DNA of 50,747 nt from Prevotella sp. (GTDB lineage: Bacteria > Bacteroidota > Bacteroidia > Bacteroidales > Bacteroidaceae), in assembly GCA_017428055.1 (NCBI GenBank), contig JAFRRN010000021.1:1-50747 (forward strand), given 5' to 3'. Of this stretch, positions 7,038 to 50,126 are shown one piece after another; position 1 is the first letter of the stretch, and each line of letters starts with the position of its first letter. The notes beneath the pieces were generated by a model. The model ran no database searches. It saw only the letters and a list, made by a program, of their open reading frames with translations, and was not told where the DNA came from. Both the position numbers and the translations under genes were made by a program.

Positions 7038-7994
7038 TCATTTTTTAACTTTTACGTCTTTGATGATGATGTCTCCACGGAAGGGCAGCAAGCCCGACTT
7101 GAAGACGATGAGTTGCCCCTTGGGATTGGTCACGTAGTTGGCAAAGCTATACGGCAATGCCCGCTGTGGGTCTACCAAGATGGCATATATGGTCCTTACA
7201 AACGGATAGCGTCCGTCAAGTAAGTATGCCTGGTAAGGTTTCCAGCTGTTGTAAGGTTTTGCCTCATCTGTCAACGATACCGACATCACATGAATATTCT
7301 TGTTAAAGGTAGTGTTGGTGGTGTCTCGGCGGTCATTGAGCCAATTAGACCCGATTACACCAATGGCATTGGGTGTCTGGTCCACATAGTCGATAACCTC
7401 CTTACTTGTCTTCGATGCAACGATGTTAGGGCTGTTGATGGGTTTACCGTCAAGGATGGAGTCCACGACATAGTGCAAGGTAGCGGATTGCTTGTTGTCA
7501 AATACCACTTCTATCTCCCCCCTTTTTGAGCCGGGAATGATTTGGTTCCAATTGGTGACCTCGCCACTGAAGATGCGCTTCACGTCTTTCACGCTGATGC
7601 AAGTGTCATTATTATTCTTGTTGCAAATCAATGCCAAGCCATCGTAGGCAATAGGGAAGCATTCTGGAAGTTGCCTCTTGGTCTTCAAGTAGGCGACCTC
7701 GCTGGGTTTCAACGCACGGGATGTGAAGAACAAGCACGTCTTCAATTCCTTGATCTGGTTGAATCCCTCAATCTCATTGGAATAAATGGGGTCGAGTTTT
7801 GCTTTTGGAAACTCAAACTCGAATTGTCTCCTCAGCTCCTCAATGATGGGGCTGAAACTCTCGTCAGCATAGAACGAGATCTCTCCCGAAATACGGGTGT
7901 CTGTACGACCACCCCTGTCCTTCTTCCCGCAAGAGAAGAAGAACAGGGATGATAAAAAGAGTACAACTAATGTAGTTGATTGTCTCATGTTCAT
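7038..7994 (-). CDS. PstS-like phosphate-binding lipoprotein
   Basis: 318 aa, periplasmic binding protein-like fold of the PstS group. The lipobox is LFFFSCGKK. The core has a GEISFYADESFSPIIEEL start, the characteristic KRIFSGEVTNWNQI block (about residue 140) found in PstS-type proteins, and the C-terminal FANYVTNPKGQLIVFKSGLLP. Only 2 nt separate it from the tonB stop, so coupling is very likely. No pstC/A/B genes are near. In Bacteroidetes such a protein is regularly embedded between tonB and a TPR gene, so a function other than ABC phosphate uptake is possible. Two in-frame ATGs (7994, 7988) are equally good. Confidence 0.85.
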   Translation of the reverse strand: MNMRQSTTLVVLFLSSLFFFSCGKKDRGGRTDTRISGEISFYADESFSPIIEELRRQFEFEFPKAKLDPIYSNEIEGFNQIKELKTCLFFTSRALKPSEVAYLKTKRQLPECFPIAYDGLALICNKNNNDTCISVKDVKRIFSGEVTNWNQIIPGSKRGEIEVVFDNKQSATLHYVVDSILDGKPINSPNIVASKTSKEVIDYVDQTPNAIGVIGSNWLNDRRDTTNTTFNKNIHVMSVSLTDEAKPYNSWKPYQAYLLDGRYPFVRTIYAILVDPQRALPYSFANYVTNPKGQLIVFKSGLLPFRGDIIIKDVKVKK

Positions 7995-7996: not shown

Positions 7997-8839
7997 TTAC
8001 TGTAATCTGAAGGATACAGGTACATTGTATTTCACACGTACTGCAGCACCATTCTGCCTACCCGGAATCCAGTGTGGCATCGACTTCACGACGCGGGCTG
8101 CCTCCTTATCGAGCGACGGGTCAACCGAGCGAACAATCTTCACGTCGGTAATCGAGCCGTCCTTCTCAACGACGAACGACACAACGACACGACCTTGAAC
8201 GCCATTCTCCTGTGCCACGACGGGGTACTTCACGTTATCAGAGAGGAACTTCATCAACGCCTCGTTTCCACCAGGGAATGAAGGCATCTGCTCCACAACG
8301 TCGAACACCTTGTTGGCGACCTCTTTCTTCTCCTCAGATTCGTTCGTGTTCACGGCGATGTCGTTACGGATAGCCACGTCGGTACGGTCTTTGGTTCCTT
8401 CTTGGTCTTTCGTACCCACAGCCACCTTCTCGTCGAGGTCAGCCTGGTCTTTCACCTGGTTCTCCTCATTAACGAGTTCGTCCTTCTTAATTTCAGGCGC
8501 GGTGAACTTCTGTGTCTCACGAACTTGCTCTACGATTTTCTTAGGTTCGATCTTAGCCTTGATAACCGGCTCCTCTTTCTTTTCCTTCTTTGCCTGCTCT
8601 TGCAACTTAGACAATTCGAGTTGCTCCATGTAGGCTTGCCTCTCCTCATCAAGTTTCTGCAAGTGAACTTTGTAGGCAAGAGCTCCACCAATAAGACCTG
8701 CCGCAATGAGCAATATCAAGAGAGCCGTGATGTTACGCTTGGAAGTGCCTTTACGAAGTTGGTATGCTCCGTATTCTTGGTTTTTCCCATCAAACACCAT
8801 ATCGACCCATTTCGGATCATACAAATCAATCTTTGCCAT
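7997..8839 (-). CDS. tonB: Energy transducer TonB
   Basis: 280 aa. A cytoplasmic N-terminus of about 33 residues, one TM segment (ITALLILLIAAGLIGGALAY), a long charged periplasmic linker rich in Lys/Glu (EQAKKEKKEEPVIKAKIEP), and a C-terminal TonB domain starting at FPGGNEALMKFLSDN and ending with RVKYNVPVSFRLQ. It links the ExbB/ExbD proton motor in the inner membrane to outer-membrane receptors such as the one at 44430-47000. It sits directly after two exbD genes. Bacteroidetes genomes usually carry several tonB copies, so this need not be the only one. Confidence 0.93.
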   Translation of the reverse strand: MAKIDLYDPKWVDMVFDGKNQEYGAYQLRKGTSKRNITALLILLIAAGLIGGALAYKVHLQKLDEERQAYMEQLELSKLQEQAKKEKKEEPVIKAKIEPKKIVEQVRETQKFTAPEIKKDELVNEENQVKDQADLDEKVAVGTKDQEGTKDRTDVAIRNDIAVNTNESEEKKEVANKVFDVVEQMPSFPGGNEALMKFLSDNVKYPVVAQENGVQGRVVVSFVVEKDGSITDVKIVRSVDPSLDKEAARVVKSMPHWIPGRQNGAAVRVKYNVPVSFRLQ

Positions 8840-8867
8840 TTTCTTAGCTTGTTAGATGATTAAACAA

Positions 8868-9515
8868 TTACAATTTCACGCCTTTCTCCTCGAGGAGTTT
8901 CACGTCGTCGGGCGTAATCTTGTCAATCACGTATGTTCCAATGCTCAGAATCTGCATCTCGTCAAGAGCGTCGATCATGTTCTTGAACGTTGCATTATCA
9001 GTAGGCTTGATAACGATAGTCAGAGTGTTGACCTTTCCTTCCTTCAGTTCACCTTTCTTGATCTTGTTCAGCTCTTTCTGATAGGTGCTGTCGTTGTATT
9101 GGAGAGGATTGGCCTTTCGGTCATTTTTCAGGCGTTCAACAGCCAACAGGATTTGCTGCACGGGGCGTGTACCGTCGGCAATCACGTGGTTGCGCAACAC
9201 GTCGCGGATTCCCTTGTCTCCCCAAGTGGTCTCGGTGAGGTCATGGGCAGTCCCGTCGTTGTCGTATTCCTGGTAGTAAACCTTATCGTCTGCCGCAACA
9301 TAGAGGGTCACAGTCTGCGAAGCCTTGGCCTCTTGCTTTTGGTCTTCCGTCTGGTTCTCGTCGTTGCTCGGCATGGTCAGCTCCATGGTGCTTGGCTTGC
9401 TCAATGATGTACAGAGCATGAAGAAGGTGATGAGAAGCATGAGCATGTCCACCATCGGGGTGAAGTCCACCCTGACGGTCATCTTCTTTTGTTTGCTTTC
9501 TTTTTTCTTTGCCAT
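8868..9515 (-). CDS. exbD: Biopolymer transporter ExbD (second copy)
   Basis: 215 aa. Short cytoplasmic N-terminus (KKMTVRVDFTPMVDMLMLL), one TM helix carrying the proton-relaying Asp in MVDML, and a periplasmic domain about 150 residues long with a SIGTYVIDKITPDD end. It starts 2 nt after the stop of the other exbD. It forms the ExbB-ExbD motor that energises TonB. The periplasmic domain is longer than in proteobacterial ExbD, as is usual for this cluster type. Confidence 0.92.
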   Translation of the reverse strand: MAKKKESKQKKMTVRVDFTPMVDMLMLLITFFMLCTSLSKPSTMELTMPSNDENQTEDQKQEAKASQTVTLYVAADDKVYYQEYDNDGTAHDLTETTWGDKGIRDVLRNHVIADGTRPVQQILLAVERLKNDRKANPLQYNDSTYQKELNKIKKGELKEGKVNTLTIVIKPTDNATFKNMIDALDEMQILSIGTYVIDKITPDDVKLLEEKGVKL

Positions 9516-9517
9516 AA

Positions 9518-10201
9518 TTATCTGCCTCCCGTTACACTTCTAATATAGTCGTAAGCACCCGCAGCCTTGCCAGCGTCGAGTTGTGAAATCATGTAATAGT
9601 GGCTCTCGTCCATGTCCTGCAATTCGTTCATGACCTTCTTCACGGTCTTGTACGGGGTCTTGGCGTCAGCCTTGAGGGCAATCTTGATGTCCTGGTTGAC
9701 TGTACGCGCAGCATTCACCCATTGCTGGAACTGGCTCATTCCGCCATCTATACTGTCGAGTGGAATACCCTTCGTCGTGATGTACTTGGCACGGTTCTGG
9801 CTGTTCATCTGCAAGTATGAAGACAACTCGTCGATGGGAACGCCGAACATGGCCTCAGTCTTGAAGGTCTCAATTTGCTTCGGGGTCAGGTTCACAGAGA
9901 ACACACTTGTCATTTCTTCAAGGGTTCTGCCCAATTGGTCTGTGTTGTCAATGCTCATGAACACCTGCCCTTCGCCCGTCGGGGTGCCCTTGGCATCCAT
10001 CTCGGGGCTAACCACGATTGTCAGCACGCCGTTCTCAGGCACCTTGATTTCGGAGATAGACCCTGGTGTCATGACCTTCACGGGCTCATTCTTGACGAAC
10101 GTAGACGTCAACATGAAGAAGGTCAAGAGCAAGGTCATCACGTCCGACATAGGTGTCATGTCGATCCAGACGTCGCTTTTCTTAACTTTTACTTTACCCA
10201 T
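9518..10201 (-). CDS. exbD: Biopolymer transporter ExbD (first copy)
   Basis: 227 aa. N-terminal VKKSDVWIDMTPMSDVMTLLLTFF gives one TM helix with the conserved Asp (PMSDVM). The periplasmic domain contains an insertion-rich middle and ends IRSVTGGR. It is 31 nt downstream of exbB and 2 nt before the second exbD. The two paralogues differ strongly outside the TM segment, so they may form a hetero-dimer on one ExbB ring; that is inference. Confidence 0.92.
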   Translation of the reverse strand: MGKVKVKKSDVWIDMTPMSDVMTLLLTFFMLTSTFVKNEPVKVMTPGSISEIKVPENGVLTIVVSPEMDAKGTPTGEGQVFMSIDNTDQLGRTLEEMTSVFSVNLTPKQIETFKTEAMFGVPIDELSSYLQMNSQNRAKYITTKGIPLDSIDGGMSQFQQWVNAARTVNQDIKIALKADAKTPYKTVKKVMNELQDMDESHYYMISQLDAGKAAGAYDYIRSVTGGR

Positions 10202-10232
10202 AGTGATAAACGTTTTAAAGGGTTAGCAAAAA

Positions 10233-11063
10233 TTAAGCCTCGTCTGCGTGGTTTGCTTCGTATGTCTGAGCGATTGAATAACCAACCTCATCAAGTGCAA
10301 AGGTGAGCTTGTCTACCTTGTTTGTGTAGTAGTTGTAAGCCACAACGGCGCACCATGATGTACCGATACCGAAGGCAGTGTTAATAAGAGCCTCAGAGAT
10401 ACCTTGTGACAGTGCGGCTGAGTCAGCACCACCACCGGCAGACAGAGCGGAGAACGAACGGATCATACCAACCACAGTACCGAGAAGACCAGTCAGCGTA
10501 CCGAGGGTAACGATGGTAGCGATGATAGGAAGGTTCATGGTCAGCGTAGGCATCTCAAGCTGTGAGGCCTCCTCGTGAGCCTGTGAGATCTTGGCGATCT
10601 TCTGGGCTTTCTTGATGCCAGAGGTAGCTTCCATTTCCTTGTAAGCTCTCAAGGATGCGCCTACCACGTTAGCAACAGAACCTCTCTGCTTGTCACAGAG
10701 CTGCTGTGCCTTAGTGAAGTCATTGGCATTCAACGCTGCCTTGATTTCAGAGACGAACTTTGGAAGGGCTCCCTTACCAAAAGCGGTCTTCAGGGCGAGC
10801 CAACGCTCGATGGTCATGGCGATAACGGTGTACAACAACGTGTGGATAACAGGCACGATGATACCTCCCTTAAAGATTGTACCCCAAACGTCGATGGGTT
10901 GCTCCTTGGTGGCATCAGCAAAGTGTGACTCATGTCCGAACCAAGTGAAGAACAAGGTGAATGCGACGATTGCGCATACAACGATGATCCAAAACGCTCC
11001 TCTTACTCCCGTGAAGCCCTGTGATTTCTTAGCAGGGCTGGCTGTCTTTTGATTAGTTGCCAT
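10233..11063 (-). CDS. exbB: MotA/TolQ/ExbB proton channel family protein
   Basis: 276 aa. Three hydrophobic segments: GAFWIIVVCAIVAFTLFF (about 22-40), GIIVPVIHTLLYTVIAMTIE (about 68-88) and the paired C-terminal helices from PIIATIVTLGTLTGLLGTVVGMI to INTAFGIGTSWCAVVAYNYY. These carry the family signature of the TolQ/ExbB channel. It is the first gene of the operon and has a promoter about 115 nt upstream, leaving an AT-rich 5' leader. It builds the inner-membrane motor using the proton gradient. Confidence 0.92.
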   Translation of the reverse strand: MATNQKTASPAKKSQGFTGVRGAFWIIVVCAIVAFTLFFTWFGHESHFADATKEQPIDVWGTIFKGGIIVPVIHTLLYTVIAMTIERWLALKTAFGKGALPKFVSEIKAALNANDFTKAQQLCDKQRGSVANVVGASLRAYKEMEATSGIKKAQKIAKISQAHEEASQLEMPTLTMNLPIIATIVTLGTLTGLLGTVVGMIRSFSALSAGGGADSAALSQGISEALINTAFGIGTSWCAVVAYNYYTNKVDKLTFALDEVGYSIAQTYEANHADEA

Positions 11064-27104: not shown

Positions 27105-28535
27105 CTAAGTCCAGAATGGAATATATTTCATATAGCGTCGGGCTGTAGTAGGGTCAAGCGGCTTAATCCATTTCTTCTCTGTTGCCTCCTTTATCAGTCG
27201 TGAAATACTTCCTGCAGAAGTATCCTTTAGCCCAAATCGTTCTCTCAATGATCCATTGGTAAGTGCATTGCCTTCTACATATTTTACACAAGCATGCATA
27301 TATGTAGCCCAGAGTTTGTCTTCAATGGAAATATTTGAAAACTCGAAGTGGGAGAATAGTGAGACCTTTGTGGATTCCTGATAGATTTGAATACGTGGAG
27401 CAGGAAGTTGTTGTGTTTCGCAACTGATAATCATTCTATCCCAACCACGACCCAGTTCTTCGCACATCCTGAGTCTGCGCATCAGTGAAGCCAGTTTCTC
27501 GTTTCTTGACTTTGGTGGATTATCCACTATTCTCTTGATTTCCACAAGAGGAACGCCTGGATTTGTTACTTCAACCCTATACGTAAAGAGTTCAACAACG
27601 GGGCCAGCACCGGCAATATAGAAATCTTGGTGGATGATGGCATTTGCAATGGCTTCCCTAATGGCCGGTAGCGGAAAAGAACTATTTGTCACCCTGCGTA
27701 TTGAATTGATGTCTTCTCTTGACGGCAATAGCGTATTGACATACCTTACTGCTTTCTCCAAACTGACGGCATACCCTTCATACATTGTTTCCTCTTTGAG
27801 AATGGTGAGCCTGTTGTTTCCTTCATATTGCACCACTCTGATTGCCTTTCGCCCCAAACGTGGAAAGTCTGTCAACTTTTTGGCAAACAGGATTGCTCCA
27901 AGGTTTGTAATGGCATACAGCCCATTATCCTGTTTCTTAATAATACCCTCTTCTTCAAGATAATGGGCATACCCTTCCTTTTCCGTTGGAACTGGTATTT
28001 GTAGAATCTCAAAGTAAGAATCACAATCCAACAAGCGCAAAGCCTGTTGCAATGTCAGGTCAATCGCAACAAATGTATCTTCGAATTGCTCATGCCTGAG
28101 TCTGTCCCACAACTGAGCCTGTAAAACAGAGAACTCATAGACCTTCTTTGTATAACTGCCTACCCGTATGTAATCGACCTTTTCAAAGGTAACGGGTACA
28201 CCAAGAGCCTTAGCAATGATGATAATCTCAACATGCTTCCCGTCAATATCCACCGACTGGAATTCAAAGTCGGCATTCTTAGACAGGAGGTATCGCAGCC
28301 AGTTCTCTATCTCCTGATTCCCTTTCTTCGTATGCTTCAGTCTGGCATTTGTTCCAATTATGTTGTGCGTTCCATCCTCCACACCCCAAATCATATAGGC
28401 GTGAGAACGGTCTGCCAGCACAGCACTATTAGCCAAAGCACTGATGTCTTCACCTATCATGCGAGGCTCATCATTGTTATGCTTAAACTCCACCCATCCC
28501 ATGATGCACCAACTATTTCCGCTCAATTTCTTCAT
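27105..28535 (-). CDS. AlbA_2 / divergent-AAA domain protein
   Basis: 476 aa. N-terminal AlbA_2 (Schlafen-like) nucleic-acid-binding domain: GWVEFKHNNDEPRMIGEDISALANSAVL...MIWGVEDGTHNIIGT (about 13-65). The middle and C-terminal part matches the RecG-related helicase-like/HATPase_c_4 group, with FPLPAIREAIANAIIHQDF and the GxGxxR segment EELGRGWDRMIISC. It ends in a winged-helix-like SLRERFGLKDTSAGSISRLIKEA. Such proteins act as transcription regulators or defence components; the exact role is unknown. Its ATG overlaps the stop of the restriction gene (ATGA). Confidence 0.85.
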   Translation of the reverse strand: MKKLSGNSWCIMGWVEFKHNNDEPRMIGEDISALANSAVLADRSHAYMIWGVEDGTHNIIGTNARLKHTKKGNQEIENWLRYLLSKNADFEFQSVDIDGKHVEIIIIAKALGVPVTFEKVDYIRVGSYTKKVYEFSVLQAQLWDRLRHEQFEDTFVAIDLTLQQALRLLDCDSYFEILQIPVPTEKEGYAHYLEEEGIIKKQDNGLYAITNLGAILFAKKLTDFPRLGRKAIRVVQYEGNNRLTILKEETMYEGYAVSLEKAVRYVNTLLPSREDINSIRRVTNSSFPLPAIREAIANAIIHQDFYIAGAGPVVELFTYRVEVTNPGVPLVEIKRIVDNPPKSRNEKLASLMRRLRMCEELGRGWDRMIISCETQQLPAPRIQIYQESTKVSLFSHFEFSNISIEDKLWATYMHACVKYVEGNALTNGSLRERFGLKDTSAGSISRLIKEATEKKWIKPLDPTTARRYMKYIPFWT

Positions 28536-29616
28536 TTTACAACAAAAATCACATCAGCAAGGCTTGTGTAGTTTTGTTTCTTGAATGAAAATCCAATCTT
28601 TTTTAGCGACTCATTTGTGAAGGTATCAAGATAGTTTTGTACTTTTGGCTCTATCAAAGAGAATGCACGCTTCATCTTCCAAGACTGGTTCATGTCTGTA
28701 GAGTCGGCTAGAATAACAAAAAGTCTGTTCTCTGCACCAAAACGCATCTCGCCTTGGTGAGCGTATAACCATGTCATTAGCTCTACAGGATTGTTCTGAG
28801 CGTCTTTGATTACCCCACTCTTAGCATCATTAAGAGCCTTTATGACATCATTGCGACCCTGTTCAGATAGTTTTTCCGTTAGCGCGTAAATCTGCTGACT
28901 CTCCGAATCGTCACTACAAGCCGTAATTCCAAATTCCTTACCCTTTGACTTTAGCCACGATAAAATTCCCTTACCCAATTTGGCTTTAATTTTCTCTTCC
29001 ATATACTGATTGGGGAAGAATGTTACTTTCAGATCTACAGGATAATCATCAATAAAGAAGTCGACGCTTTTTATCTCGCCTACGGCAGAAATAACTCTTG
29101 GGTGGCGTTTGAACAAGGATTCAATAAGATACGATGTCCAGTTGTTATACCAGCTGTTTTGTACGTAGTTCCATGCATTGTTGGCAATTTCGCCCTGTTT
29201 GCTAACTAATTCATCGTATTCGCTAATGACTTTGACATATCTGCTGACAAGATGTTTGTCCAAAGAATTGTTCTGGTCGCCGCCCCATGCATAGTACTGC
29301 ACTTTGTAAAGGTCGTCTTTCAGTTTTTCTTCGTCAACACCTATTGAAGTGTACCACTCATGGTTCTTACCTTGAAGGTATCTGTCAAGCATGGACTTGG
29401 CATCATCGTGATTCTCCAATAATTCGAACAGCTCAACGTTTTGTTCAGATATTTTGTAGATGTCAGCGTCAGTTCGTTATCATTTAAGAATTGATCAATT
29501 TGCTTGCCGCGACAAACAGCACGCACTTTCAGCCAAAGCAAGGCATTGGCATTATTGTTGAACGCATATAAGTTCTGGGCACGAAATTCCTTGTCCCATT
29601 TTTCAAAGTTGCTCAT
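28532..29616 (-). pseudogene. Probable type II restriction endonuclease, frameshifted
   Basis: The first frame starts at ATG 29616 (MSNFEKWDKEFRAQNLYAFN), 8 nt after the methyltransferase stop, and runs to about 29460. The second frame is open from just below 29477 to 28532 and continues ADIYKISEQNVELFELLENHDD... to ADVIFVVK. The second frame has no ATG at its beginning, only a TTG at 29419. Joined, they give about 361 codons. A PD-(D/E)xK-like site is in SVDFFIDDYPVDLKVTF. Restoring one base near 29455-29476 would reconnect the frames. Adjacent to a methyltransferase, this is most simply a broken restriction gene; a sequencing error is possible. Confidence 0.72.
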
Positions 29617-29624
29617 CTCTATTT

Positions 29625-30689
29625 CTATTTTGGTGTACAAATCATAAGAATCTCACTGCTACCCGCCACACTGCCTTTTCCGCCACGGCCAGCACTATAA
29701 GTCTTTCGCTCAACCTTTACATCGCGATACGGCTCTATCATAGCCATCATCGTATCAATGTCAGGATAGCTCCGATCGTTATAGCTTACAAGCCATGTTG
29801 GGATGTTCTGCGATAGTTCAAACATTCTGCGCAAATTGTCAACGGCTTCGCAATTTTTGTCAAATCCGCTATATCGTTTCGGTTCATAGCGTTTCGTTCC
29901 ATTAACAAATTGCTTGTCCTTCCAGTATTCCACAAATGTTTCCAACAGGTGATAGAATGACTGATAGTCAGCATGACTATTACAATATGGAGGGTCAAAA
30001 TATACAAGGTCTACACCTTCAAGCCTCGGAAGCAGGTCGAGAACATTTTCATGGTAGCTTTTATTATGCTCTTGATTGTCGAAGACAGCAGCATTGTACC
30101 CAGGCAATAATTCCAGAAACAATTCCTTTAGCGGACGAATAAGGCTGCGGTTTCTTTTAATACGGGCAGGGTCAGCAGCATAGTTGAGTGCCTGGGTGTG
30201 TGCAAAATGTCCCATCGTTACTTTACGAGTCATACTCCTACACATCACGGTAAGTGCCAACGACTGCTTGTATGGATTATCGAGTTTACTAACATTACTC
30301 CTGAAGCTATCGGCAAAAGCAGCTTCTTCGCGGGTAAAGAACAAATCGGCGAAAAGAGACTCCATCAAATTAAAGTCCTCAGGATTACTGTTCTCTGCAA
30401 ACAGAATCGCAGTATCATCCGAAGAAAGCATTATGCTTGGATTCTCAACAAGAGCCTTACCAATGTGATAATTAAAACTCATAAAATCATTAGTCAACGT
30501 TCTTTTTCCCAACTGTTTCATCATATAAGCAACAGACTGAGAGCCTCCGAATGCATCCAAAACAGTGTCGACGCTCTCAGGTATAAATTTTGCAATCCAT
30601 CCTCTATGGATGAATTTTGCTCCCAAATATTGTGGTTCAGGGAAATTATAGTCTAAATAATCATTGTTATTAAACAAGTCTCGTGCCAT
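29625..30689 (-). CDS. D12-class N6-adenine DNA methyltransferase
   Basis: 354 aa from ATG 30689. Motif X/N-terminus PEPQYLGAKFIHRGWIAKFI, motif I VLDAFGGSQSVAYMMKQLG (about residue 40) for S-adenosylmethionine binding, and motif IV DLVYFDPPYCNSHADY (about 225) with the DPPY catalytic tetrad. It methylates adenine in a recognition sequence that cannot be deduced here. The longer frame begins only with TTG (30776) and would cover the repeat region 30748-30812, so the ATG is preferred. It protects DNA from the adjacent restriction enzyme; if that enzyme is dead, this is an orphan methylase. Confidence 0.9.
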   Translation of the reverse strand: MARDLFNNNDYLDYNFPEPQYLGAKFIHRGWIAKFIPESVDTVLDAFGGSQSVAYMMKQLGKRTLTNDFMSFNYHIGKALVENPSIMLSSDDTAILFAENSNPEDFNLMESLFADLFFTREEAAFADSFRSNVSKLDNPYKQSLALTVMCRSMTRKVTMGHFAHTQALNYAADPARIKRNRSLIRPLKELFLELLPGYNAAVFDNQEHNKSYHENVLDLLPRLEGVDLVYFDPPYCNSHADYQSFYHLLETFVEYWKDKQFVNGTKRYEPKRYSGFDKNCEAVDNLRRMFELSQNIPTWLVSYNDRSYPDIDTMMAMIEPYRDVKVERKTYSAGRGGKGSVAGSSEILMICTPK

Positions 30690-30747
30690 ATTTATCTTTC
30701 TTCTGTTTTTTATCTTGCGTTTTTCAAATTGTTGTTCTATTTTCGAC

Positions 30748-30812
30748 TTACCCACTAACTTTTCCGAGTTACCCAATAAGTGAATTGTAGTAACCCACTA
30801 ACTCTAATTCAT
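30748..30812. repeat. Three ~22-bp units upstream of the methyltransferase
   Basis: TTACCCACTAACT at 30748, TTACCCAATAAGT at 30769 and TAACCCACTAACT at 30791 are spaced 21 and 22 bp. They lie just upstream of the methyltransferase and overlap the end of the small gene 30809-31150. They are a candidate operator for restriction-modification control. Confidence 0.65.
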
Positions 30813-41356: not shown

Positions 41357-42007
41357 ATGAAGATCTTTTTCTCCTCATTGGTAAGGGCCGTGGTTGCCGC
41401 GATAGTGGGCATGTTGATACTTGAATATCGGGAAGATACGGTTCGATGGATTACCGTCGCCTCGGGTGTTTTGTTCTTTGTCTCGGGAATCATTTCCTGT
41501 GCCATCTATTATAGTGGCAAGCAGAAAGCCGAAGGGCAAAAAGTCTATGATGCCGAGGGAAACTTGGTGTCGGCGGGGTTGTCGCCCAATTTCCCGTTGG
41601 TGGGTCTCGGTAGCATCATCCTTGGTATCATCCTGGCAGTCATGCCCGTGTCGTTCATCACAGGGGTTATGTATGCGATGGCGGCTATCTTGATCTTGGG
41701 AGCCATCAACCAGTTTGTGAATTTGGGGCGGGCAACCCGTTTCTGCCGTGTGGGCTTCTTCTATTGGCTGTTGCCTTCGGTTATCCTTTTGGTGGCATTG
41801 TTCTTGATTTTCAAGCCTATTGAGATGGCTACCACACCCTTGTTGCTCACGGGATGGTGCATGTTGCTTTATGCTGCCACGGAGATAGTCAATGGTCTCA
41901 AACTCGTGGCTGCTAACCATGAGCGTAAGATAATGGAGAAAGAGAAAGAGGTTGTTGTCCAAAAGGAGGAACAACTTCCTGCGCCTTCCGACGACTCAGC
42001 ATCATGA
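41357..42007 (+). CDS. DUF308 / HdeD-like membrane protein
   Basis: 216 aa with about six TM helices in three pairs. GMLILEYREDTVRWITVASGVLFFVSGIISC, PLVGLGSIILGIILAVMPVSFITGVMYAMAAILILGAINQFVNL and PSVILLVALFLIFKPIEMATTPLLLTGWCMLLYAATEIVNGLKL match the repeated DUF308/HdeD pattern. The C-terminal tail is charged (ERKIMEKEKEVVVQKEEQ). Function unknown; E. coli HdeD is linked to acid resistance. It converges on uridine kinase and the two stop codons share TCATGA. Confidence 0.82.
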   Translation: MKIFFSSLVRAVVAAIVGMLILEYREDTVRWITVASGVLFFVSGIISCAIYYSGKQKAEGQKVYDAEGNLVSAGLSPNFPLVGLGSIILGIILAVMPVSFITGVMYAMAAILILGAINQFVNLGRATRFCRVGFFYWLLPSVILLVALFLIFKPIEMATTPLLLTGWCMLLYAATEIVNGLKLVAANHERKIMEKEKEVVVQKEEQLPAPSDDSAS

Positions 42008-42631
42008 ATTGACCTCTGGCATCAACCCCTCAATGTACTTGCATAGGATGCCGATGCCCTTGAGATTCTCGCCGCCTTGCGGGATGATGAGGTCAGCATA
42101 TCGCTTCGTGGGCTCGATGAATTGCTCGTGCATGGGCTTAAGAACCTTGAGATAGCGGTCTACAACCATCGAGACGGTACGTCCGCGGTCGATAGTGTCG
42201 CGCTGGATATTGCGGATGAGCCGCTCATCGGGGTCTGTATCGACAAAGATTTTCAAGTCCATCAAGTCTCGTAGCTTACGGTTGAGCAGTGTCATGATGC
42301 CCTCGATGATGATGACGGGCTTCGGCTCCACGTGGATGGTATCGGGCAATCGGTTGCAGAGCAGGTAGGAATAGGTGGGTTGCTCGATGGCATTGCCTTG
42401 TCGCAACTCATTGATTTGCTTGTAGAGTAGTTTCCAGTCGAAGGCATCGGGATGGTCGAAGTTGATGGCGTGACGCTCCTCTTCCGTCATGTGCGACGTG
42501 TCGTTGTAATAAGAGTCCAAGGGAACGACCGCCACATAGTGCGGTGGCAATGCCTCGACGATTTTCTTCACGACGGTGGTCTTGCCCGACCCCGTGCCGC
42601 CGGCGATACCGATAATGGTTACTTTTTCCAT
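42002..42631 (-). CDS. udk: Uridine kinase
   Basis: 209 aa. P-loop GIAGGTGSGKTTVVKKI (residues about 8-24), then VVPLDSYYNDTSHMTEEERHAINFDHPDAFDW, the substrate-binding block typical of uridine/cytidine kinases, and IIEGIMTLLNRKLRDLMDLKIFVDTDPDERLIRNIQRD. It phosphorylates uridine and cytidine to UMP/CMP in pyrimidine salvage. It is the third gene of a unit with a secreted nuclease-like enzyme and a DNA-glycosylase-like protein (12-nt gap), which suggests use of imported nucleosides. Confidence 0.94.
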   Translation of the reverse strand: MEKVTIIGIAGGTGSGKTTVVKKIVEALPPHYVAVVPLDSYYNDTSHMTEEERHAINFDHPDAFDWKLLYKQINELRQGNAIEQPTYSYLLCNRLPDTIHVEPKPVIIIEGIMTLLNRKLRDLMDLKIFVDTDPDERLIRNIQRDTIDRGRTVSMVVDRYLKVLKPMHEQFIEPTKRYADLIIPQGGENLKGIGILCKYIEGLMPEVNS

Positions 42632-42643
42632 GTTATTTTGGTT

Positions 42644-43216
42644 TTATGTGATGTCTTGAAACAAGTGGGCATAATATTCTGCCTTGCGCTCTACCTTCAT
42701 GGGATAGGCGCGTGAACTGCTGGGCATACGATAGAGCCGCATGTCCTTGCCTTTATATTTGAAAGAGGTGTAGGATCCCACTTTGGGTTGAGTGATTTGG
42801 AATTGACCGCAAAAGATGTCGGTCGCCTTTTGCCCTGTCGTCACAACGACCTCACATTGTGGGATGCGGCTCAACAGGGCATCTAAATCCGTCTCTTCCA
42901 CCACTTCCAAGTCTTTGTCGGAAGCTGTGTTGTTGAGCCTTCTCACGGCAATGGCGGTGTCGAACAACCCTATATGTCGATCGTTGAGGAATGGGATGAT
43001 GCGGTCAAGGACAAACTCCTTACGCTCCTCGTCAACGAAATGCGCCTTGTCATCGTAGAATAGAATGCCCATGATACGCCACATGTCGTTGATGAAGTTT
43101 GGATAGAAAAAGTCCATGCACCAACGCTTACGTGAAGGAGGGAAACTGCCGAGCATCAACACGCGGCATCCGTCGGGCAGGAAAGGTTGCCAAGGGTGGT
43201 GTTCCACTTCTGCCAT
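42644..43216 (-). CDS. Uracil-DNA-glycosylase-superfamily protein
   Basis: 190 aa from ATG 43216. The GCRVLMLGSFPPSRKRWCMDFFYPNFINDMWRIMG start matches the UDG superfamily core (GxxP loop) of Mug/UDG-like proteins, and CEVVVTTGQKATDIF plus RMPSSSRAY (position of the second active-site block) follow. In this subgroup the catalytic details differ from Ung, so the base specificity is not assigned. It starts 8 nt after the stop of the secreted EEP enzyme and ends 12 nt before udk. The upstream extension to 43288 overlaps the EEP gene and is rejected. Confidence 0.78.
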   Translation of the reverse strand: MAEVEHHPWQPFLPDGCRVLMLGSFPPSRKRWCMDFFYPNFINDMWRIMGILFYDDKAHFVDEERKEFVLDRIIPFLNDRHIGLFDTAIAVRRLNNTASDKDLEVVEETDLDALLSRIPQCEVVVTTGQKATDIFCGQFQITQPKVGSYTSFKYKGKDMRLYRMPSSSRAYPMKVERKAEYYAHLFQDIT

Positions 43217-43224
43217 ACGTCGGC

Positions 43225-44277
43225 TTATTGTTGTTCCTTGACAAGATAAACGACGACGGGAAGGTGGTCGCTGAACCCATTGAGCCATACGCCGCCAGCG
43301 GTAGTGCGGAGGGGAGACCCCTTGTATTTGCCCTCTTGTTGGATGAGATAGTCGCGGCGGAATATTTGTGGCTTCAGATACTTCAATGTGCTATAATCCT
43401 TGGTGCCGGCTTGGTCAAGCACGTTGGGAGTCATGACAATCTGGTCAAACAAGTTCCAAGAGCCATTGTACATCAAAGTGCCACGTCCCTCCTTGGTGAG
43501 GATGTTGTACCAGGGGTTAAACATTTCATCAGGTTTCACCTTGGCGAGGTCGCCTTTCGCACCCAATTGTTCCGTCATGCTCTTGTTGATGGGGTCGTCG
43601 TTCATGTCGCCCATGACAAACACCTTGCAATTAGGGTCATCGCGGAGCAGCGAATCTTTCAACACACGTACCTGCTTGCCTGCCAACTCACGATAATAGG
43701 CACCTGAAAAACGGCTGGGCCAGTGGCATACGACGACCGTCACATGCTCGTTTGCCAATGTTCCGCTCACCGTCAAAAAACCACGGGTGGCGCGGTTGCT
43801 GTCAGCTGGCAACTCATAGACGTATGGTACCAGTTTGACATCGCGCACCGTGAAAAGGCTGGGATTGTAGAGCATGGCACAATCCACGCCGCGTCGGTCG
43901 GCACCTTCCACATGTGCATATTTATATCCTCGAGCAGATAGAGGCTCCTGTGCCGTCAAGTCGTCAAGCACCTTGCTGTTCTCCACTTCACTCAAGCCGA
44001 TAACGGCGCAGCCCACACCCGGTAGCATGTCTGTTCCCATGTCTGCCAAGGCACGTGCCATGTTACGTAATTTGTTGGAATACTTCAGCCCATCCCACTT
44101 ATTTGTACCCGTGGGAAGGTACTCATAGTCGTTCTTTCCCGTGTCATGACAGGTGTCAAATAGGTTTTCTTGGTTGTAGAACCCTACACCATATACGGAG
44201 AATTTTCGTTGTGCGGATGTGGGTAGTGCGAAGAATAACGCCAACACCCATAGGATAGATTGCTTTGTCATCGTCAT
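43225..44277 (-). CDS. Secreted endonuclease/exonuclease/phosphatase-fold enzyme
   Basis: 350 aa from ATG 44277. Signal peptide MTMTKQSILWVLALFFALPTSAQ, then the EEP fold: GFYNQENLFDT (Asn/Glu metal site), CAVIGLSEVENSKVL (Glu), VVVCHWPSRF (His), FVMGDMNDDPIN (the GDxNDxP metal/catalytic motif) and WLNGFSDHLPVVVYL (SDHxP). These match DNase I-like/exonuclease III-like Mg-dependent phosphodiesterases. A signal peptide with no lipobox suggests periplasmic or secreted location. It is divergent from the TonB receptor operon and is the first gene of EEP-UDG-udk. The substrate (DNA, RNA, or other phosphodiesters) is unknown. Confidence 0.87.
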   Translation of the reverse strand: MTMTKQSILWVLALFFALPTSAQRKFSVYGVGFYNQENLFDTCHDTGKNDYEYLPTGTNKWDGLKYSNKLRNMARALADMGTDMLPGVGCAVIGLSEVENSKVLDDLTAQEPLSARGYKYAHVEGADRRGVDCAMLYNPSLFTVRDVKLVPYVYELPADSNRATRGFLTVSGTLANEHVTVVVCHWPSRFSGAYYRELAGKQVRVLKDSLLRDDPNCKVFVMGDMNDDPINKSMTEQLGAKGDLAKVKPDEMFNPWYNILTKEGRGTLMYNGSWNLFDQIVMTPNVLDQAGTKDYSTLKYLKPQIFRRDYLIQQEGKYKGSPLRTTAGGVWLNGFSDHLPVVVYLVKEQQ

Positions 44278-44296
44278 GTTAGTTAGTATTATGCTG

Positions 44297-44304
44297 CAAA
44301 TATC
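44297..44304 (-). promoter_or_regulatory. -7-like box for the EEP-UDG-udk unit
   Basis: The minus strand reads GATATTTG, one mismatch to TAnnTTTG, 20 nt before the ATG. The divergent plus-strand box TTACTTTG (44381-44388), also one mismatch, serves the receptor gene. Both sit in the 152-bp gap 44278-44429, so co-regulation is possible. Confidence 0.4.
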
Positions 44305-44429
44305 GTAATTAAATCTGAATAATCGTATATAATCGGCGGAAAAAACATCAAAAATCCTTTTATTTTTCAAATATATTTAGTTACTTTGCACCATATATTA
44401 AACCTAACAACTATTATTCATTTTTATAT

Positions 44430-47000
44430 ATGCAAGAAAAACTGAAACTCGTTGTGATGAGCCTCTGCTGTTCAACGATGGCTTTCGCACAAGTCACGGA
44501 GACAGAAGAGCAAAAGACCAGTTCGCTCAGCGAATCGGCATTCACGTTCACCGAGGCACAGTTGGGAGAGGACGACGACATGTCGCAGAATGTCACCATC
44601 CTCAACTCTAACACCAATGTGTATGCGTCACAGGTGGGATACCAGTTCTCGCCTGTGCGCTTCCGTTACCGTGCCTACAACCAGAAGTACAACGAAGTGT
44701 TTGTCAACGGCGCACCCATGAACGACATGGAGCGCGGGCAGTTCAGCTATTCCATGGTGGGTGGCTTGAACCAACAGACACGCAACGTGGACTTCGCCCT
44801 CCCCTTTGAGGGAAACAGCTTCACCATGCCCGCTATGGGCGGTAGTAACAATTACAACTTCCGTGCGGGGAGCATGGCGGCGGGGCATCGCATTACACTT
44901 AGTGGTGCCAATCGCAACTACACCGTGCGTGGGATGTACACATACGCTTCAGGATTCAACGAGAAGGGATGGGCTATCGCCGCCAACCTCACCTATCGTT
45001 GGGCAAAGGAGGGATATGTGGAAGGAACGTTCTACAATGCCCTTAGTTATTTCCTCGGGGTACAGAAGAAATGGGACAACGGCCACTCGCTCTCCCTTTC
45101 CACTTGGGGAAATCCCACCGAGAGGGCATCGCAAGGTGCTTCCACCGATGAGGCTTATTGGCTTGCCAATGACCGTTATTACAATCCTTATTGGGGATAC
45201 CAAAACGGCCACAAGCGCAACTCGCGCGTCGTCAACGACTTTGCGCCGTCTGCCATTGCCACATGGGATTGGAACATCAACAACGACATGAAACTCACCA
45301 CGTCGCTCTTCGGCAAGTATTCGATGTACAAGAGTACCAAGCTCAATTACAACAATGCCGAGAACCCCCAGCCTAATTATTGGAAAAACCTTCCCAGTTC
45401 CTATTACGATGTGTGGGATGAGACCAATGCCACATACCGCACGGAGCTTGCCCTCAACGACTGGAACACGGCTCGCGACTTCTGGCTCGCCTCCAAGGAG
45501 AACCGGCAAATCAACTGGGACCGCCTCTATTGGTCCAACAAGAATGCTGCCGCCACGGGAGCAGATGCCCTCTACTATGTGCAAGCCAAGCACAGCGATA
45601 ACCTGACGTTCAACCTGTCGTCAACGTTCACCGAGCGGATGGGCGACAAGAAGACGTGGAACATCGGGGGAAACATCGCGTCCAATGTGGGAAGGCATTA
45701 CCAGACGATGGAAGACATGCTCGGTGCCTCCACGTTCCACAACATCAACTCGTATGCCCTCGGTACGTATGACATCATCAACCCCTACGTGCAATACGAC
45801 CTCAACACCATGGGAGCCAACGGGCAAGGCAAACTCGTCTATGAAGGCGACAAGTTCGGTTACGACTATGCCCTGCGGGTTTACAAGGGAAACATCTGGA
45901 GCAGCTATTCTGCCACGTCTGGTCCCTGGCACGCGATGATTGCCGGGCGTATGGGGCAGACCGCCATGAATCGCAAGGGATATATGCGCAATGGTATGTT
46001 TGCCGATAACTCATACGGAGCAAGCGAGACGGCATGGTTCAGCGAGGCAGGAGGAAAGGGTAGCCTTTCGCTCGATGCAGGTCGTGGCCATGTGTTTAAG
46101 TTAGGCGTAGGATATGAATGGAAAGCACCTTTGGCTAATGCCGCATTTGTCTCGCCAGAGATGAACAATGACTTCGTGAGCAACCTCAAGGATGAGCATG
46201 TGTTTAGTTCGGAGTTTAGTTACCAATACCAGAATGCTTGGGTTCATGCCAACCTGAATGCTTATTACAGCCGTGTTGACCATGCGACGGAATGGCAAAA
46301 CTTCTATTTTGACGACATCAACTCGTTCTCATACGTCTCCATGACAGGTATCGAGAAAGAATATTACGGCGTGGAATTAGGATTGGACTTCAAGGTCAAT
46401 TCCGCTTTCAACATCAAGGCTCTCGGCACATGGGGCGAAGCCAAGAACATCAACAATGCCAATGTGAGATACATGAGTTCCACCAAGCGCACCTACACCG
46501 ACGACATCGTGATGAACAAGGGTATGCGCGAGGCAGGGACACCGCTCACGGCTGCCAGCCTGATTGCCAGCTATCATTCAGGAGGATGGTTTATCGACCT
46601 CAGCGGCAACTATTACGACCGTATCTATCTCTCTTATTCGCCATCTTATCGCTACCAGGGAACGCTCACCACGATGGGCAGCATCGATAACTTCGGCGAC
46701 TTCATCGTACCAGAGCAAGCCAAGGGGCATGGCGGATTCATGCTCGACGGCTCCATTGGCCGCAACATCCGCCTGCGCCACGGCAACATCTCCATCAACC
46801 TCATGGTGACGAACATCCTCAACAACCGCAACATCGTGACGGGTGGATATGAGCAGAGCCGTTCTGACTATACCGTCAAGGACGACGGAAGCGGCAACAC
46901 CGTGCGCAACAACTCGCGTACCTATAAGTTCTCGAAGAACCCGATGAAGTATTATGCCTACGGCACCAACGGAATGCTTAACATCGCCTATAAATTCTAA
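44430..47000 (+). CDS. TonB-dependent outer-membrane receptor without SusD partner
   Basis: 856 aa. Signal peptide MQEKLKLVVMSLCCSTMAFAQ, a short acidic stretch, then a plug domain (DDDMSQNVTILNSNTNVYASQVGYQFSPVRFRYRAYNQ...VFVNGAPMNDMERGQFSY) directly after the signal; the carboxypeptidase-regulatory-like domain of SusC-type receptors is missing. The rest is a beta-barrel with many aromatic strands ending GTNGMLNIAYKF, a classical outer-membrane C-terminal Phe. No SusD homologue is near; instead two lipoproteins (DUF5689-like and OB-fold repeat) follow at 14 and 28 nt. It probably imports a ligand these lipoproteins bind, using the Ton system. Confidence 0.9.
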   Translation: MQEKLKLVVMSLCCSTMAFAQVTETEEQKTSSLSESAFTFTEAQLGEDDDMSQNVTILNSNTNVYASQVGYQFSPVRFRYRAYNQKYNEVFVNGAPMNDMERGQFSYSMVGGLNQQTRNVDFALPFEGNSFTMPAMGGSNNYNFRAGSMAAGHRITLSGANRNYTVRGMYTYASGFNEKGWAIAANLTYRWAKEGYVEGTFYNALSYFLGVQKKWDNGHSLSLSTWGNPTERASQGASTDEAYWLANDRYYNPYWGYQNGHKRNSRVVNDFAPSAIATWDWNINNDMKLTTSLFGKYSMYKSTKLNYNNAENPQPNYWKNLPSSYYDVWDETNATYRTELALNDWNTARDFWLASKENRQINWDRLYWSNKNAAATGADALYYVQAKHSDNLTFNLSSTFTERMGDKKTWNIGGNIASNVGRHYQTMEDMLGASTFHNINSYALGTYDIINPYVQYDLNTMGANGQGKLVYEGDKFGYDYALRVYKGNIWSSYSATSGPWHAMIAGRMGQTAMNRKGYMRNGMFADNSYGASETAWFSEAGGKGSLSLDAGRGHVFKLGVGYEWKAPLANAAFVSPEMNNDFVSNLKDEHVFSSEFSYQYQNAWVHANLNAYYSRVDHATEWQNFYFDDINSFSYVSMTGIEKEYYGVELGLDFKVNSAFNIKALGTWGEAKNINNANVRYMSSTKRTYTDDIVMNKGMREAGTPLTAASLIASYHSGGWFIDLSGNYYDRIYLSYSPSYRYQGTLTTMGSIDNFGDFIVPEQAKGHGGFMLDGSIGRNIRLRHGNISINLMVTNILNNRNIVTGGYEQSRSDYTVKDDGSGNTVRNNSRTYKFSKNPMKYYAYGTNGMLNIAYKF

Positions 47001-47014
47001 AACCCTACAGAGAT

Positions 47015-48376
47015 ATGAAACAGATGAAATATATCCTAATGGCCATCGTGGGGACATTGTTCGTCGCTTGCATGGGCGAAGACTATGCAGAACCCGCCTT
47101 GGAACAATCACCATACGGCAATAACGCCTTGACGGAGTCTAACCTGCTGACCATCCAACAGTTGAAAGACAAATATGCCAACATCATCGCCAATAGCGGC
47201 ATGGTGGAGGTGGAACAGGAAACGCAAATCAAGGGCATCATCACGGGCAATGACATTGGTGGTAATATATATAATGAGGTGTCCATACAAGACGAGACGG
47301 GTGCATTGCTTGTGTGTATCGCACAGGGTGGACTCTATGGACCGCTCGCCGTAGGGCAGGAGGTTCTCATCGAACTCAAAGGCCTCATGATTGGAGGGTA
47401 TGGGATGCAACCCGAAATTGGCGGTGTCTATACCAACCAAAACACGGGGGCGCAATCCATCGGACGCATGAGCCGTTATCTTTGGAACACTCATTATAAG
47501 TTGATTGGGACTCCCAATCCCACCAAGGTGGAAGAGATGATAGAAGACTTCGACCAGGCGCAAATGACCAATGCCAACTACCTTGCCGCCAATTGTGGCA
47601 AGATCATGAAGATAAGGGGCGTGACGCTTAAAGATGCCAACGGCAAGAAAGTGTATGCGCCCGACGACGGCAGCGTGTCGCTCACCGCTAACTGCGCCAA
47701 CCGTGCCTTTACGGGCATCGACCAGAATAGTCTCGTGTTGCGCACCAGCACGTATGCCGACTTCGCCAACACCATCATGCCCGAAGGGGAACACGACATC
47801 GTGGGCATCTTCACGCGCTATCGCAATACGTGGCAAATCCTCCTTCGCACCCTTGATGACGTGAGGGAAGCAGAGCCAGAGCCAACGGCATTGTTTGAGG
47901 AGTCGTTCTTAGATGCGGAGCGCAAGCAAGGAGACTTCACCATCGTAAATGTGGTTATGCCCGGCGACTTGAACTATGTTTGGAATTGGGATAGTCGCTA
48001 TGGCATGAAAGCATCTGCCTATCTTAACTCAACCAACCACGCAACAGACAGTTGGCTCGTATCGCCCGCCATCGACCTCAGTGGAGTGAGCGATGCCACG
48101 TTGACCTTCTCACAGGCATTCCGCTATGGCAATGGTGCAGAAGACCTCCATGTGTATGCCACAACGGAAGCATTCGACGGGGCGACCATCGATGCAAGCA
48201 AGTGGAAAGAACTCACTCTCGACCAATGGCCAGAAGGCACGTCATGGACATTCATCACCAGCACCACGTCGCTGAAAGACTATGCCGGGAAGAATGGCGT
48301 ACGCATCGCCTTCCGATACACCAGTACCGACAAGGCTGCCGCCACATGGGAAATCCAGAATGTTTCGATAGATTAA
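47015..48376 (+). CDS. DUF5689-type surface lipoprotein
   Basis: 453 aa. Lipobox GTLFVACMGEDY followed by acidic residues, as in surface-exposed Bacteroidetes lipoproteins. The N-terminal half (about 40-270) has TIQQLKDKYANIIANSG and VEQETQIKGIITGNDIGGNIYNEVSIQDETGALLVCI, matching DUF5689, an OB-fold-like domain. The C-terminal half (about 290-453) is a beta-sandwich of the choice-of-anchor/MAM-like type (LFEESFLDAERKQGDFTIVN...DSWLVSPAIDLSGVSDATLTFSQAFRYG). It lies 14 nt after the receptor. The ligand is unknown; OB folds often bind single-stranded nucleic acid or oligosaccharide. Confidence 0.82.
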   Translation: MKQMKYILMAIVGTLFVACMGEDYAEPALEQSPYGNNALTESNLLTIQQLKDKYANIIANSGMVEVEQETQIKGIITGNDIGGNIYNEVSIQDETGALLVCIAQGGLYGPLAVGQEVLIELKGLMIGGYGMQPEIGGVYTNQNTGAQSIGRMSRYLWNTHYKLIGTPNPTKVEEMIEDFDQAQMTNANYLAANCGKIMKIRGVTLKDANGKKVYAPDDGSVSLTANCANRAFTGIDQNSLVLRTSTYADFANTIMPEGEHDIVGIFTRYRNTWQILLRTLDDVREAEPEPTALFEESFLDAERKQGDFTIVNVVMPGDLNYVWNWDSRYGMKASAYLNSTNHATDSWLVSPAIDLSGVSDATLTFSQAFRYGNGAEDLHVYATTEAFDGATIDASKWKELTLDQWPEGTSWTFITSTTSLKDYAGKNGVRIAFRYTSTDKAAATWEIQNVSID

Positions 48377-48404
48377 ATTGATAAAAACAAAAAAGAACAA
48401 CAAT

Positions 48405-50126
48405 ATGAAAAAGCTATTTTATTCATTATTCGCCCTGGCCATGACGGCCATGACATTCACCAGTTGTGAGGATGTACCCATGCCTTACGACGACCCCACC
48501 ATGAACCAAGGCGGTGGCAACACGACGGTCATCGACCCGACGGGAACGGGTACGCAAGACGACCCCTTCAACGTGATTGCCGCCATCAACTACGCACAGC
48601 AGTTGGAATTGGGAGAGGAAAGCGACAAAGACATCTACATCAAGGGAGTTGTGGTGTCCATCGCCGAGAACTACACGCTGCTATACGGTAACGCCCGCTT
48701 CTACATCTCCGATGACGGCACAGCCAAAAACCAACTCCTCATCTATCGCGCACTATACTTGGGGAATAGGAAGTACACCGATGGCGACCTCCTCCAAGAG
48801 GGCGACTCCGTGATTATCTGCGGAAAGGTAACCAACTATAACGGAACTCTCGAGACCGCGCAAAACAAGGCCTACCTCTATTCGCTCAATGGGCAAATCG
48901 TAGAAAGCAGCAGCTCAGCAGCCGGGGATCCTACAGGAACGGGTACGCTTGAAGACCCGTTCAACTCCGTGGCAGCCATGGCCTTCTGCGAGGAATTGGG
49001 AGTAGGAAACGAAAGTGACAAGGATTATTACATCAAGGGTAAGGTGGCCACCATTACCGAAAACTATTCCACCCAATATGGAAACGCCCAGTTCACCATC
49101 TCCGACGACGGTACGGCTAAGGGGCAGTTCCTGATTTACCGTGCGCTTTATCTTGGGAACAAGAAATATACCGAGGGCGACCTCCTCAAAGAGGGCGACG
49201 AAGTCATTGTCTGCGGAAGATTGACCAATTATAACGGCACGGCAGAAACCGCACAGAACAAGGCTTACCTCTACTCGCTTAATGGGGTGACGGGCGGCGA
49301 CACTCCGACACCATCGGGCGAAGCCAAGGGCAGCGGCACGTTGGAAGACCCGTTCAATGCGGTTGCCGCCAATAATTATGCCAGTTCCTTGGCTGCCGAT
49401 GCCAAGAGCGACAAGGATGTCTATATCAAGGGTAAGATTTCGTCCATCGCCAACAACGGGGCGTTTGGCACTCAATACGGCAATGCTACATTCTATATCT
49501 CTGATGATGGAACATCCAACAATGAGTTCTATGTCTTCCGTACTCTCTATTTAGGAAACAAGAAATATGACAACACTAACGACCCGAACATCAACGTAGG
49601 TGATGAGGTCATCATCTGCGGAAAGGTGACAAACTACAGGGGCAACACACCCGAGACATCAGCCAATGAAAGCTACATCTATTCGCTCAACGGCAAGACC
49701 GAAGGCGGCGGTGGTGAAGAACAGCCCAAAGATGCTGGCACTTACGACAGCCCGCTGACCGTCACGCAAGCCATCTCCCTCGCCAATGCCGATGCCGCAT
49801 GGGTGAAAGGCTACATCGTAGGCTATGTCACGGGGCAAGTGATCAGCACAGGCGCGGTGTTCTCTGCCGAGGGTGCTACGAACACAAACCTGCTCATTGC
49901 CGCCTCCGCCTCCGAGACCGATGTCAGCAAGTGTATGCCCATCCAGTTGTCGCGCGACTATCGTGCCGACTTCGCCCTTGACGCCAACCCTGGGATGTTG
50001 GGCAAGGAAGTCATCATCGCCGGGCAGTTAACCACCTATTTCGGTGTTCCTGGCTTGAAATCTCCTACCTACATCGAGGCCAATGGCAAGAGCGTAGGCA
50101 ATAAGGTCAAGTTCCGAAAGAGATAA
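48405..50126 (+). CDS. Multi-OB-fold surface lipoprotein (DUF6359-like repeats)
   Basis: 573 aa from ATG 48405 (the frame upstream starts only with TTG). Lipobox MTFTSCEDVP. Three tandem modules of about 125 residues each start TGTGTQDDPFN, TGTGTLEDPFN and KGSGTLEDPFN. Each continues KDxYIKGxVxxI...YGNAxFYISDDGT...FRxLYLGNKKY...GDEVIICGKVTNYxG..ETxxNxxYIYSLNG. A fourth, divergent module follows a Gly-rich linker (TYDSPLTVTQAISLANADAAWVKGYIVGYVTG). Modules resemble the OB-fold lipoproteins grouped as DUF6359. DNA is also repeated, so the modules arose by internal duplication. Third gene of the receptor operon; ends before a strong terminator. Confidence 0.83.
   Translation: MKKLFYSLFALAMTAMTFTSCEDVPMPYDDPTMNQGGGNTTVIDPTGTGTQDDPFNVIAAINYAQQLELGEESDKDIYIKGVVVSIAENYTLLYGNARFYISDDGTAKNQLLIYRALYLGNRKYTDGDLLQEGDSVIICGKVTNYNGTLETAQNKAYLYSLNGQIVESSSSAAGDPTGTGTLEDPFNSVAAMAFCEELGVGNESDKDYYIKGKVATITENYSTQYGNAQFTISDDGTAKGQFLIYRALYLGNKKYTEGDLLKEGDEVIVCGRLTNYNGTAETAQNKAYLYSLNGVTGGDTPTPSGEAKGSGTLEDPFNAVAANNYASSLAADAKSDKDVYIKGKISSIANNGAFGTQYGNATFYISDDGTSNNEFYVFRTLYLGNKKYDNTNDPNINVGDEVIICGKVTNYRGNTPETSANESYIYSLNGKTEGGGGEEQPKDAGTYDSPLTVTQAISLANADAAWVKGYIVGYVTGQVISTGAVFSAEGATNTNLLIAASASETDVSKCMPIQLSRDYRADFALDANPGMLGKEVIIAGQLTTYFGVPGLKSPTYIEANGKSVGNKVKFRKR

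Follow-up and report, generated by a model that had tools for sequence, protein, structure and literature searches.

The window considered here is a 50,747-nt stretch of DNA from Prevotella sp. (positions 1 to 50,747 of contig JAFRRN010000021.1, assembly GCA_017428055.1). It carries a divergent gene cluster, three members of which encode a secreted EEP-family phosphodiesterase (P0004, Exo_endo_phos_3; 43225–44277, minus strand), a predicted TonB-dependent outer-membrane receptor (P0001; 44430–47000, plus strand), and a lipoprotein with a DUF5689 domain and a choice-of-anchor J (jelly-roll) domain (P0002; 47015–48376, plus strand). As judged by sequence comparison, this trio is homologous to, and arranged like, Riemerella anatipestifer genes that fit the locus tags RA0C_RS04910–RS04915–RS04920; R. 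anatipestifer is a duck pathogen in which the receptor and the lipoprotein are required for natural transformation. The trio probably constitutes the outer-membrane DNA-uptake system for natural transformation in the Prevotella organism as well, a proposal to which a probability of about 0.58 is assigned.

In R. anatipestifer, a transposon screen of 3,000 mutants for natural transformation genes yielded hits in 16 genes (PMC8459023). Markerless deletion of either of two adjacent genes, RA0C_RS04915 or RA0C_RS04920, lowered transformation to below detection, so that each is essential; the former was described as an outer membrane protein with a CarboxypepD_reg domain (PF13620) and the latter as a DUF5689 and DUF5017 protein (PMC8459023). 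The authors offer a model, which they call speculative, in which DNA is bound by RS04920 and conveyed across the outer membrane by RS04915, and they leave the protein that degrades one strand unidentified; in the accessible text, RS04910 is named only as an upstream gene, with unchanged transcription (PMC8459023). Because the window holds the same three-gene set as R. anatipestifer, in which the receptor and lipoprotein are required, its locus is a good candidate for the passage of DNA through the Bacteroidota outer membrane. The suggestion of the first-pass annotation that the locus binds and imports nucleic acid is thus strengthened by the essentiality of the two homologues in transformation, whereas its nucleoside-salvage part found no support.

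The R. anatipestifer genome used for comparison (G865), which belongs to the same class as the window, as do Chryseobacterium-type genomes, was recognized by a published tonBB primer (PMC8383284): of the 320 genomes of the family, it alone contains an exact match. Two further tonBB primer strings also fall within this 3-kb locus, and a string containing two junction bases does not. This genome contains one strong receptor orthologue (769 bits; next match, 181 bits) within the order recA, four genes, a 602-aa ComEC gene, a 145-aa gene, a carboxyltransferase (accD-like) gene, and the EEP, receptor, and DUF5689 genes. With RecA at RS04870 and the tag number rising by five per gene, ComEC falls at RS04895, the receptor at RS04915, and the DUF5689 protein at RS04920, which are the published assignments and with which the Pfam domains of the region agree; by the same ladder, the EEP gene would be RS04910. 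In blastp comparisons of the window with R. anatipestifer, the receptors share 26% identity over 884 columns (1.5e-79), the DUF5689 proteins 23% (1.5e-19), and the EEP proteins 31% (1.5e-52). Identities to the R. anatipestifer receptor were computed here as 61.6% for Chryseobacterium, 41.8% for Empedobacter, and 45% for Bergeyella (one metagenome-assembled genome), compared with printed values of 65.9%, 42.49%, and 60.46%, respectively (PMC8459023); the first two genera agree with the printed figures, and Bergeyella departs from them.

The two loci thus share a receptor gene followed by a DUF5689 lipoprotein gene, an EEP gene in divergent orientation, which came to light in the present comparison and is not named in the accessible text of PMC8459023, and ComEC and DprA genes in the genome. 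They differ in that the R. anatipestifer receptor has a CarboxypepD_reg domain whereas the window receptor does not, in the extra OB-fold lipoprotein of the window, and in the genes that follow EEP, namely those for a UDG-like protein and uridine kinase (udk) in the window but accD-like and comEC genes in R. anatipestifer.

Conservation of the neighborhood was surveyed in 76 loci, namely that of the window itself, 52 from the same order (50 of them with receptor matches of at least 240 bits and two, G008 and G113, with weaker ones), 20 from elsewhere in the class, and three from Riemerella, with all six-frame open reading frames (ORFs) being scored. The DUF5689 gene lies directly downstream of the receptor gene in 73 of the 76 (the exceptions being L070, L078, and L130), and an EEP gene is found at most 1.5 kb upstream of the receptor gene in 55, 53 of these pairs being divergent and separated by a median of 146 nt; five of the loci without an upstream EEP gene stop at a contig edge. 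A greedy longest-ORF count put EEP beside the receptor in 47 of the 68 loci that have a gene upstream, some EEP genes having been masked by longer false ORFs. Furthermore, in the best 80 of at least 587 confirmed Flavobacteriia-type relatives, a set picked by the receptor alone, 79 loci have a divergent EEP gene and 79 a downstream DUF5689 gene, with one of the two misses being a contig end. This set shares some members with the 20 loci from elsewhere in the class; L149 and L117, judged by length, seem to be one contig. Whole genomes carrying the orthologue contain only one to four EEP matches (40 genomes), so that adjacency of EEP to the receptor would rarely arise by chance. The association of the three genes is therefore more than chance, and the conserved unit consists of EEP, the receptor, and DUF5689; the first-pass annotation had made conservation of its gene set elsewhere one of the points on which its reading turned, and both counts find this trio kept together. 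Four later loci stand outside the 76-locus count. Two relatives from the window's own family place all three genes on one strand, in the order EEP–receptor–DUF5689 (L246) or receptor–DUF5689–EEP (L245), which argues for a shared function beyond a shared promoter.

The other genes of the cluster are far less constant. An OB-type lipoprotein gene occurs in only six of the 76 loci; the general partner of the receptor is DUF5689, and the OB lipoprotein is therefore an accessory component and not the general substitute for SusD that had been supposed. A udk match is present in three loci and a UDG homologue in one, the window itself; of two further genomes of the same genus, one (L244) keeps EEP–UDG–udk as in the window and the other (L243) lacks both UDG and udk. 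These two genes are genus-level neighbors outside the conserved unit, and the nutrient circuit of nuclease, UDG, and udk initially proposed is not supported by these counts.

For the window receptor itself, neither Pfam nor NCBIfam gave a significant match. Among 33 aligned receptor orthologues, 17 match the Pfam Plug family (best, 1.2e-7); the absence of the SusC-type N-terminal domain, already remarked upon in the annotation, was borne out, with CarbopepD_reg_2 being matched by 21 of the 33 but not by the window copy. Four solved structures were matched by the receptor profile, with all chains aligning to the N-terminal regulatory domain only, and sequence searches of solved structures with P0001, P0002, P0003 (the OB-fold lipoprotein), and P0004 gave no matches for any of the four.

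A profile built from the 33 receptors (A1) scores 957 bits on the window receptor and 769 bits on that of R. anatipestifer. Of 296 genomes of the phylum, 45 have a single-piece match of at least 660 bits and one a split copy; all of these belong to the window's class, and the next best match reaches 290.6 bits. Within 177 genomes of the class, 44 matches were obtained at 1e-100, 43 of them with at least 770 bits and one with 349 bits. A search with P0001 itself against 119 genomes of the window's order found matching genomes numbering 71 at 1e-15 and 51 at 240 bits or more, with one genome (G078) carrying two copies above the latter level. Homologues have been reported to be widespread in the phylum Bacteroidetes, with those of RS04915 found only in Flavobacteriaceae (PMC8459023). 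In a tree built by a quick method from 36 of the fetched orthologues, in which 12 of 42 inner branches are open, the orthologues separate from nine paralogues with an SH-aLRT support of 100 and broadly track the genome groups. The receptor gene is interrupted in two genomes, being split with one TGA in G340 (contig C19, near 402753) and containing one TAA in G030 (L034); it may therefore be decaying in some lineages.

The EEP assignment of the annotation is confirmed (PF19580, 313.8 bits). Eleven putative active-site residues (N35, N38, E97, E99, D132, H185, D224, N226, S336, D337, and H338) show no variation across the aligned sequences (20 of 20 and 29 of 29), the window copy included. The fold matches of an AlphaFold2 model (mean pLDDT, 88.2) comprise nucleases as well as a sphingomyelinase and a sugar phosphatase; the fold does not fix the substrate, and any DNase activity is putative.

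The DUF5689 lipoprotein was likewise correctly assigned (DUF5689, 223.1 bits; choice-of-anchor J, 65 bits), and a fold search returned a jelly roll resembling a carbohydrate-binding module (CBM). Its fold list contains no OB match, but is filled by the jelly-roll half and is thus uninformative on an OB fold; hhalign gave no profile signal between the DUF5689 domain and the OB repeats of P0003 (probability, at most 1.4%), and the idea that DUF5689 is itself an OB fold was set aside. The DUF5689 Pfam model also has a match in Bacillus subtilis, among the control genomes, which may be the extracellular nuclease YhcR. In P0003 (48405–50126, plus strand; its ORF opens at TTG 48378), the repeated OB-like modules and the DUF6359 domain seen earlier were both recovered, as three stretches of tRNA_anti-codon (PF01336; 56.6 bits, 2.4e-15) and as PF19886 (122.2 bits, 1.1e-35). 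Signal peptides and lipoboxes were assigned by eye.

With respect to energy supply, the minus strand of the window encodes ExbB, two ExbD proteins, and TonB in a row at 7997–11063 (Pfam MotA_ExbB, ExbD, ExbD, and TonB_C), followed by a PBP_like_2 gene at 7038–7994, and this set may be the one that serves the receptor. An ExbB–ExbD–ExbD–TonB set is also found among the TonB systems of R. anatipestifer, whose tonBA and tonBB mutants transform less (PMC8383284). In other bacteria, some ComEC proteins lack a nuclease domain, with Streptococcus pneumoniae using EndA (PMC12455585). ComEC and DprA were both found in the window's own genome, and ComEC in all eight genomes examined, the own genome included, has DUF4131 and Competence domains and no Lactamase_B match. 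As all eight ComEC proteins lack the nuclease domain, the EEP enzyme becomes a candidate transformation nuclease. Its likeness to EndA or to the Lactamase_B domain of ComEC lies in the proposed role only, that is, in removal of the non-translocated strand; the EEP protein has an EEP fold by model, from which the fold of EndA differs.

Taken together, these features suggest a pathway in which the surface lipoproteins—DUF5689 and, in this organism, the OB-fold lipoprotein—would capture extracellular DNA, the TonB-dependent receptor, powered by ExbB–ExbD–TonB, would move it across the outer membrane, the secreted EEP enzyme would cut it, possibly degrading one strand, and a strand would enter the cytoplasm by way of ComEC and there be acted on by DprA and RecA. 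For this organism, the present data show homology, gene order, and conservation; that DNA is what is carried, which way it travels, and all that is said of the role of the EEP enzyme and the OB lipoprotein are what we infer. Such a TonB-powered DNA importer would perhaps also serve nutrition. A wider generalization is offered only tentatively and is more doubtful than the local proposal: that Bacteroidia import transforming DNA via a TonB-energized receptor and a DUF5689 lipoprotein in place of a type IV pilus or secretin, with a dedicated secreted EEP nuclease supplying the strand processing of which their ComEC, lacking the nuclease domain, would be incapable and the OB lipoprotein of the window being an added DNA trap. 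The type IV pilus and related uptake systems of other Gram-negative bacteria perform the same overall task, bringing DNA across the outer membrane, but no pilus family was matched by the six proteins of the window locus.

Several observations weigh against a DNA-uptake function. Sixteen of the 76 loci have room for an EEP gene and none there, identity to the R. anatipestifer proteins is only 23–31%, and a mannosyl-6-phosphatase and TDP2 are equally good matches of the EEP model. EEP is not one of the 16 genes recovered from the screen of 3,000 mutants, and a DUF1343 gene was also essential in that screen, so that indirect envelope effects are possible (PMC8459023). Flavobacterium johnsoniae reportedly has all of the homologues, yet attempts to transform it failed under the conditions used (PMC8459023, among other sources), and the effect of tonBB was attributed to iron by its authors (PMC8383284). 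The ComEC of Helicobacter pylori lacks the nuclease domain, with no EndA either (PMC12455585), and the missing domain does not, therefore, by itself demand an EEP-type nuclease. Moreover, ComEC occurs in 175 and HHH_3 in 174 of 177 genomes of the class; as both are near-universal, their co-occurrence with the receptor gives no support and was discarded as evidence, the best HHH_3 matches mostly lying in frames of approximately 700–820 aa, unlike the small ComEA. Finally, a 16S primer located the naturally competent Porphyromonas gingivalis in none of 375 genomes of the order and none of 249 genomes of family f9.

Nutritional scavenging of nucleic acid, in which the receptor complex would import DNA or oligonucleotides for degradation by EEP and other enzymes to phosphate, carbon, or nucleosides, with transformation a by-product in some species, is the most plausible alternative, although considerably less probable than uptake for transformation. 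It would account for the wide occurrence of the receptor orthologue in the order of the window (at least 240 bits in 51 of 119 genomes), wider than that known for transformation, and for the succession of UDG-like and udk genes after EEP in the window and one congener; the rarity of udk and UDG outside the genus and their absence from part of it argue the other way. No nucleoside-salvage gene is prominent among the neighbors, of which those outside the six profiles were only partly read by eye. Also in its favor, phosphate or peptone in the medium alters transformation in the two Riemerella species, with effects of opposite sign (PMC8383284, among other sources). Against it, transformation is the phenotype for which the homologues were tested (PMC8459023).

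Somewhat less probable again is import of another ligand, such as a phosphorylated compound, a metal complex, or a surface glycan, with the requirement in transformation being indirect via the envelope state or nutrition. Against this, other envelope genes in the R. anatipestifer screen, that for apolipoprotein N-acyltransferase among them, had partial effects, whereas the two adjacent genes are each absolutely required, with transformation below detection (PMC8459023); in addition, the steady neighbor of the receptor gene is a nuclease-superfamily gene. A SusC/SusD-type polysaccharide utilization locus is very improbable. Such importers do share with the window locus an outer-membrane receptor and surface lipoproteins, here joined by a secreted enzyme, and the DUF5689 protein has a CBM-like jelly roll. 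Nevertheless, SusD is matched by neither P0002 nor P0003, SusC/RagA is not matched by P0001, no glycan-active enzyme was found among the six proteins, and only one of 10 Flavobacteriia orthologues matches the SusC/RagA model, weakly (1.3e-4), for which reasons this assignment was rejected.

As far as sequence can tell, the window has a homologue of a transformation locus that is known but whose mechanism is unstudied; the locus is traced here into Bacteroidales, with a third conserved member, EEP, not considered in the accessible text of PMC8459023. In competent P. gingivalis, the route of DNA into the periplasm was described in 2024 as remaining unclear (PMC11532111). A literature search, covering few subscription papers and no preprints, returned nothing linking an EEP gene to transformation or describing this locus in Bacteroidales. 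The EEP gene is one candidate for the missing strand-degrading nuclease, and the proposed function, if true, would define a way of acquiring genes, powered by TonB, in a phylum dominant in the gut.

The six-gene layout described in the first-pass annotation is the same in the ORF calls and translations. On the minus strand, udk (42002–42631) is separated by 12 nt from the UDG-superfamily-like gene (42644–43216), and the latter by 8 nt from EEP, with 152 bp of intergenic sequence (44278–44429, read directly) between the EEP and receptor starts. The uridine kinase assignment holds (NF004018, 282.9 bits, above the cut-off), whereas the UDG-like protein has no Pfam match up to an E-value of 1 and a weak NCBIfam score (TIGR04274, 42.1 bits, under the cut-off of 80). 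Scans for promoters (five sites, versus 9.0 expected in shuffles) and terminators (10, versus 7.0) were not used.

Among relatives of the locus, a tandem pair of DUF5689 genes follows the receptor gene in some cases (L044, L058, L071, L123, and others). Downstream of DUF5689 in L037, L056, and L072 stands a recurrent trio of approximately 245, 450, and 120–145 aa, with similar sizes in other loci, whose products by eye are glycosyltransferase-like, dihydroorotase/amidohydrolase-like, and lipoprotein-like. Elsewhere in the window, a low-GC stretch (27105–30776, minus strand) contains genes for a D12-class adenine methyltransferase (29625–30776), an unmatched 295-aa protein (28532–29419), and a Schlafen/AlbA_2 and recG-like protein (27105–28535), and may be a restriction-modification or defense island.

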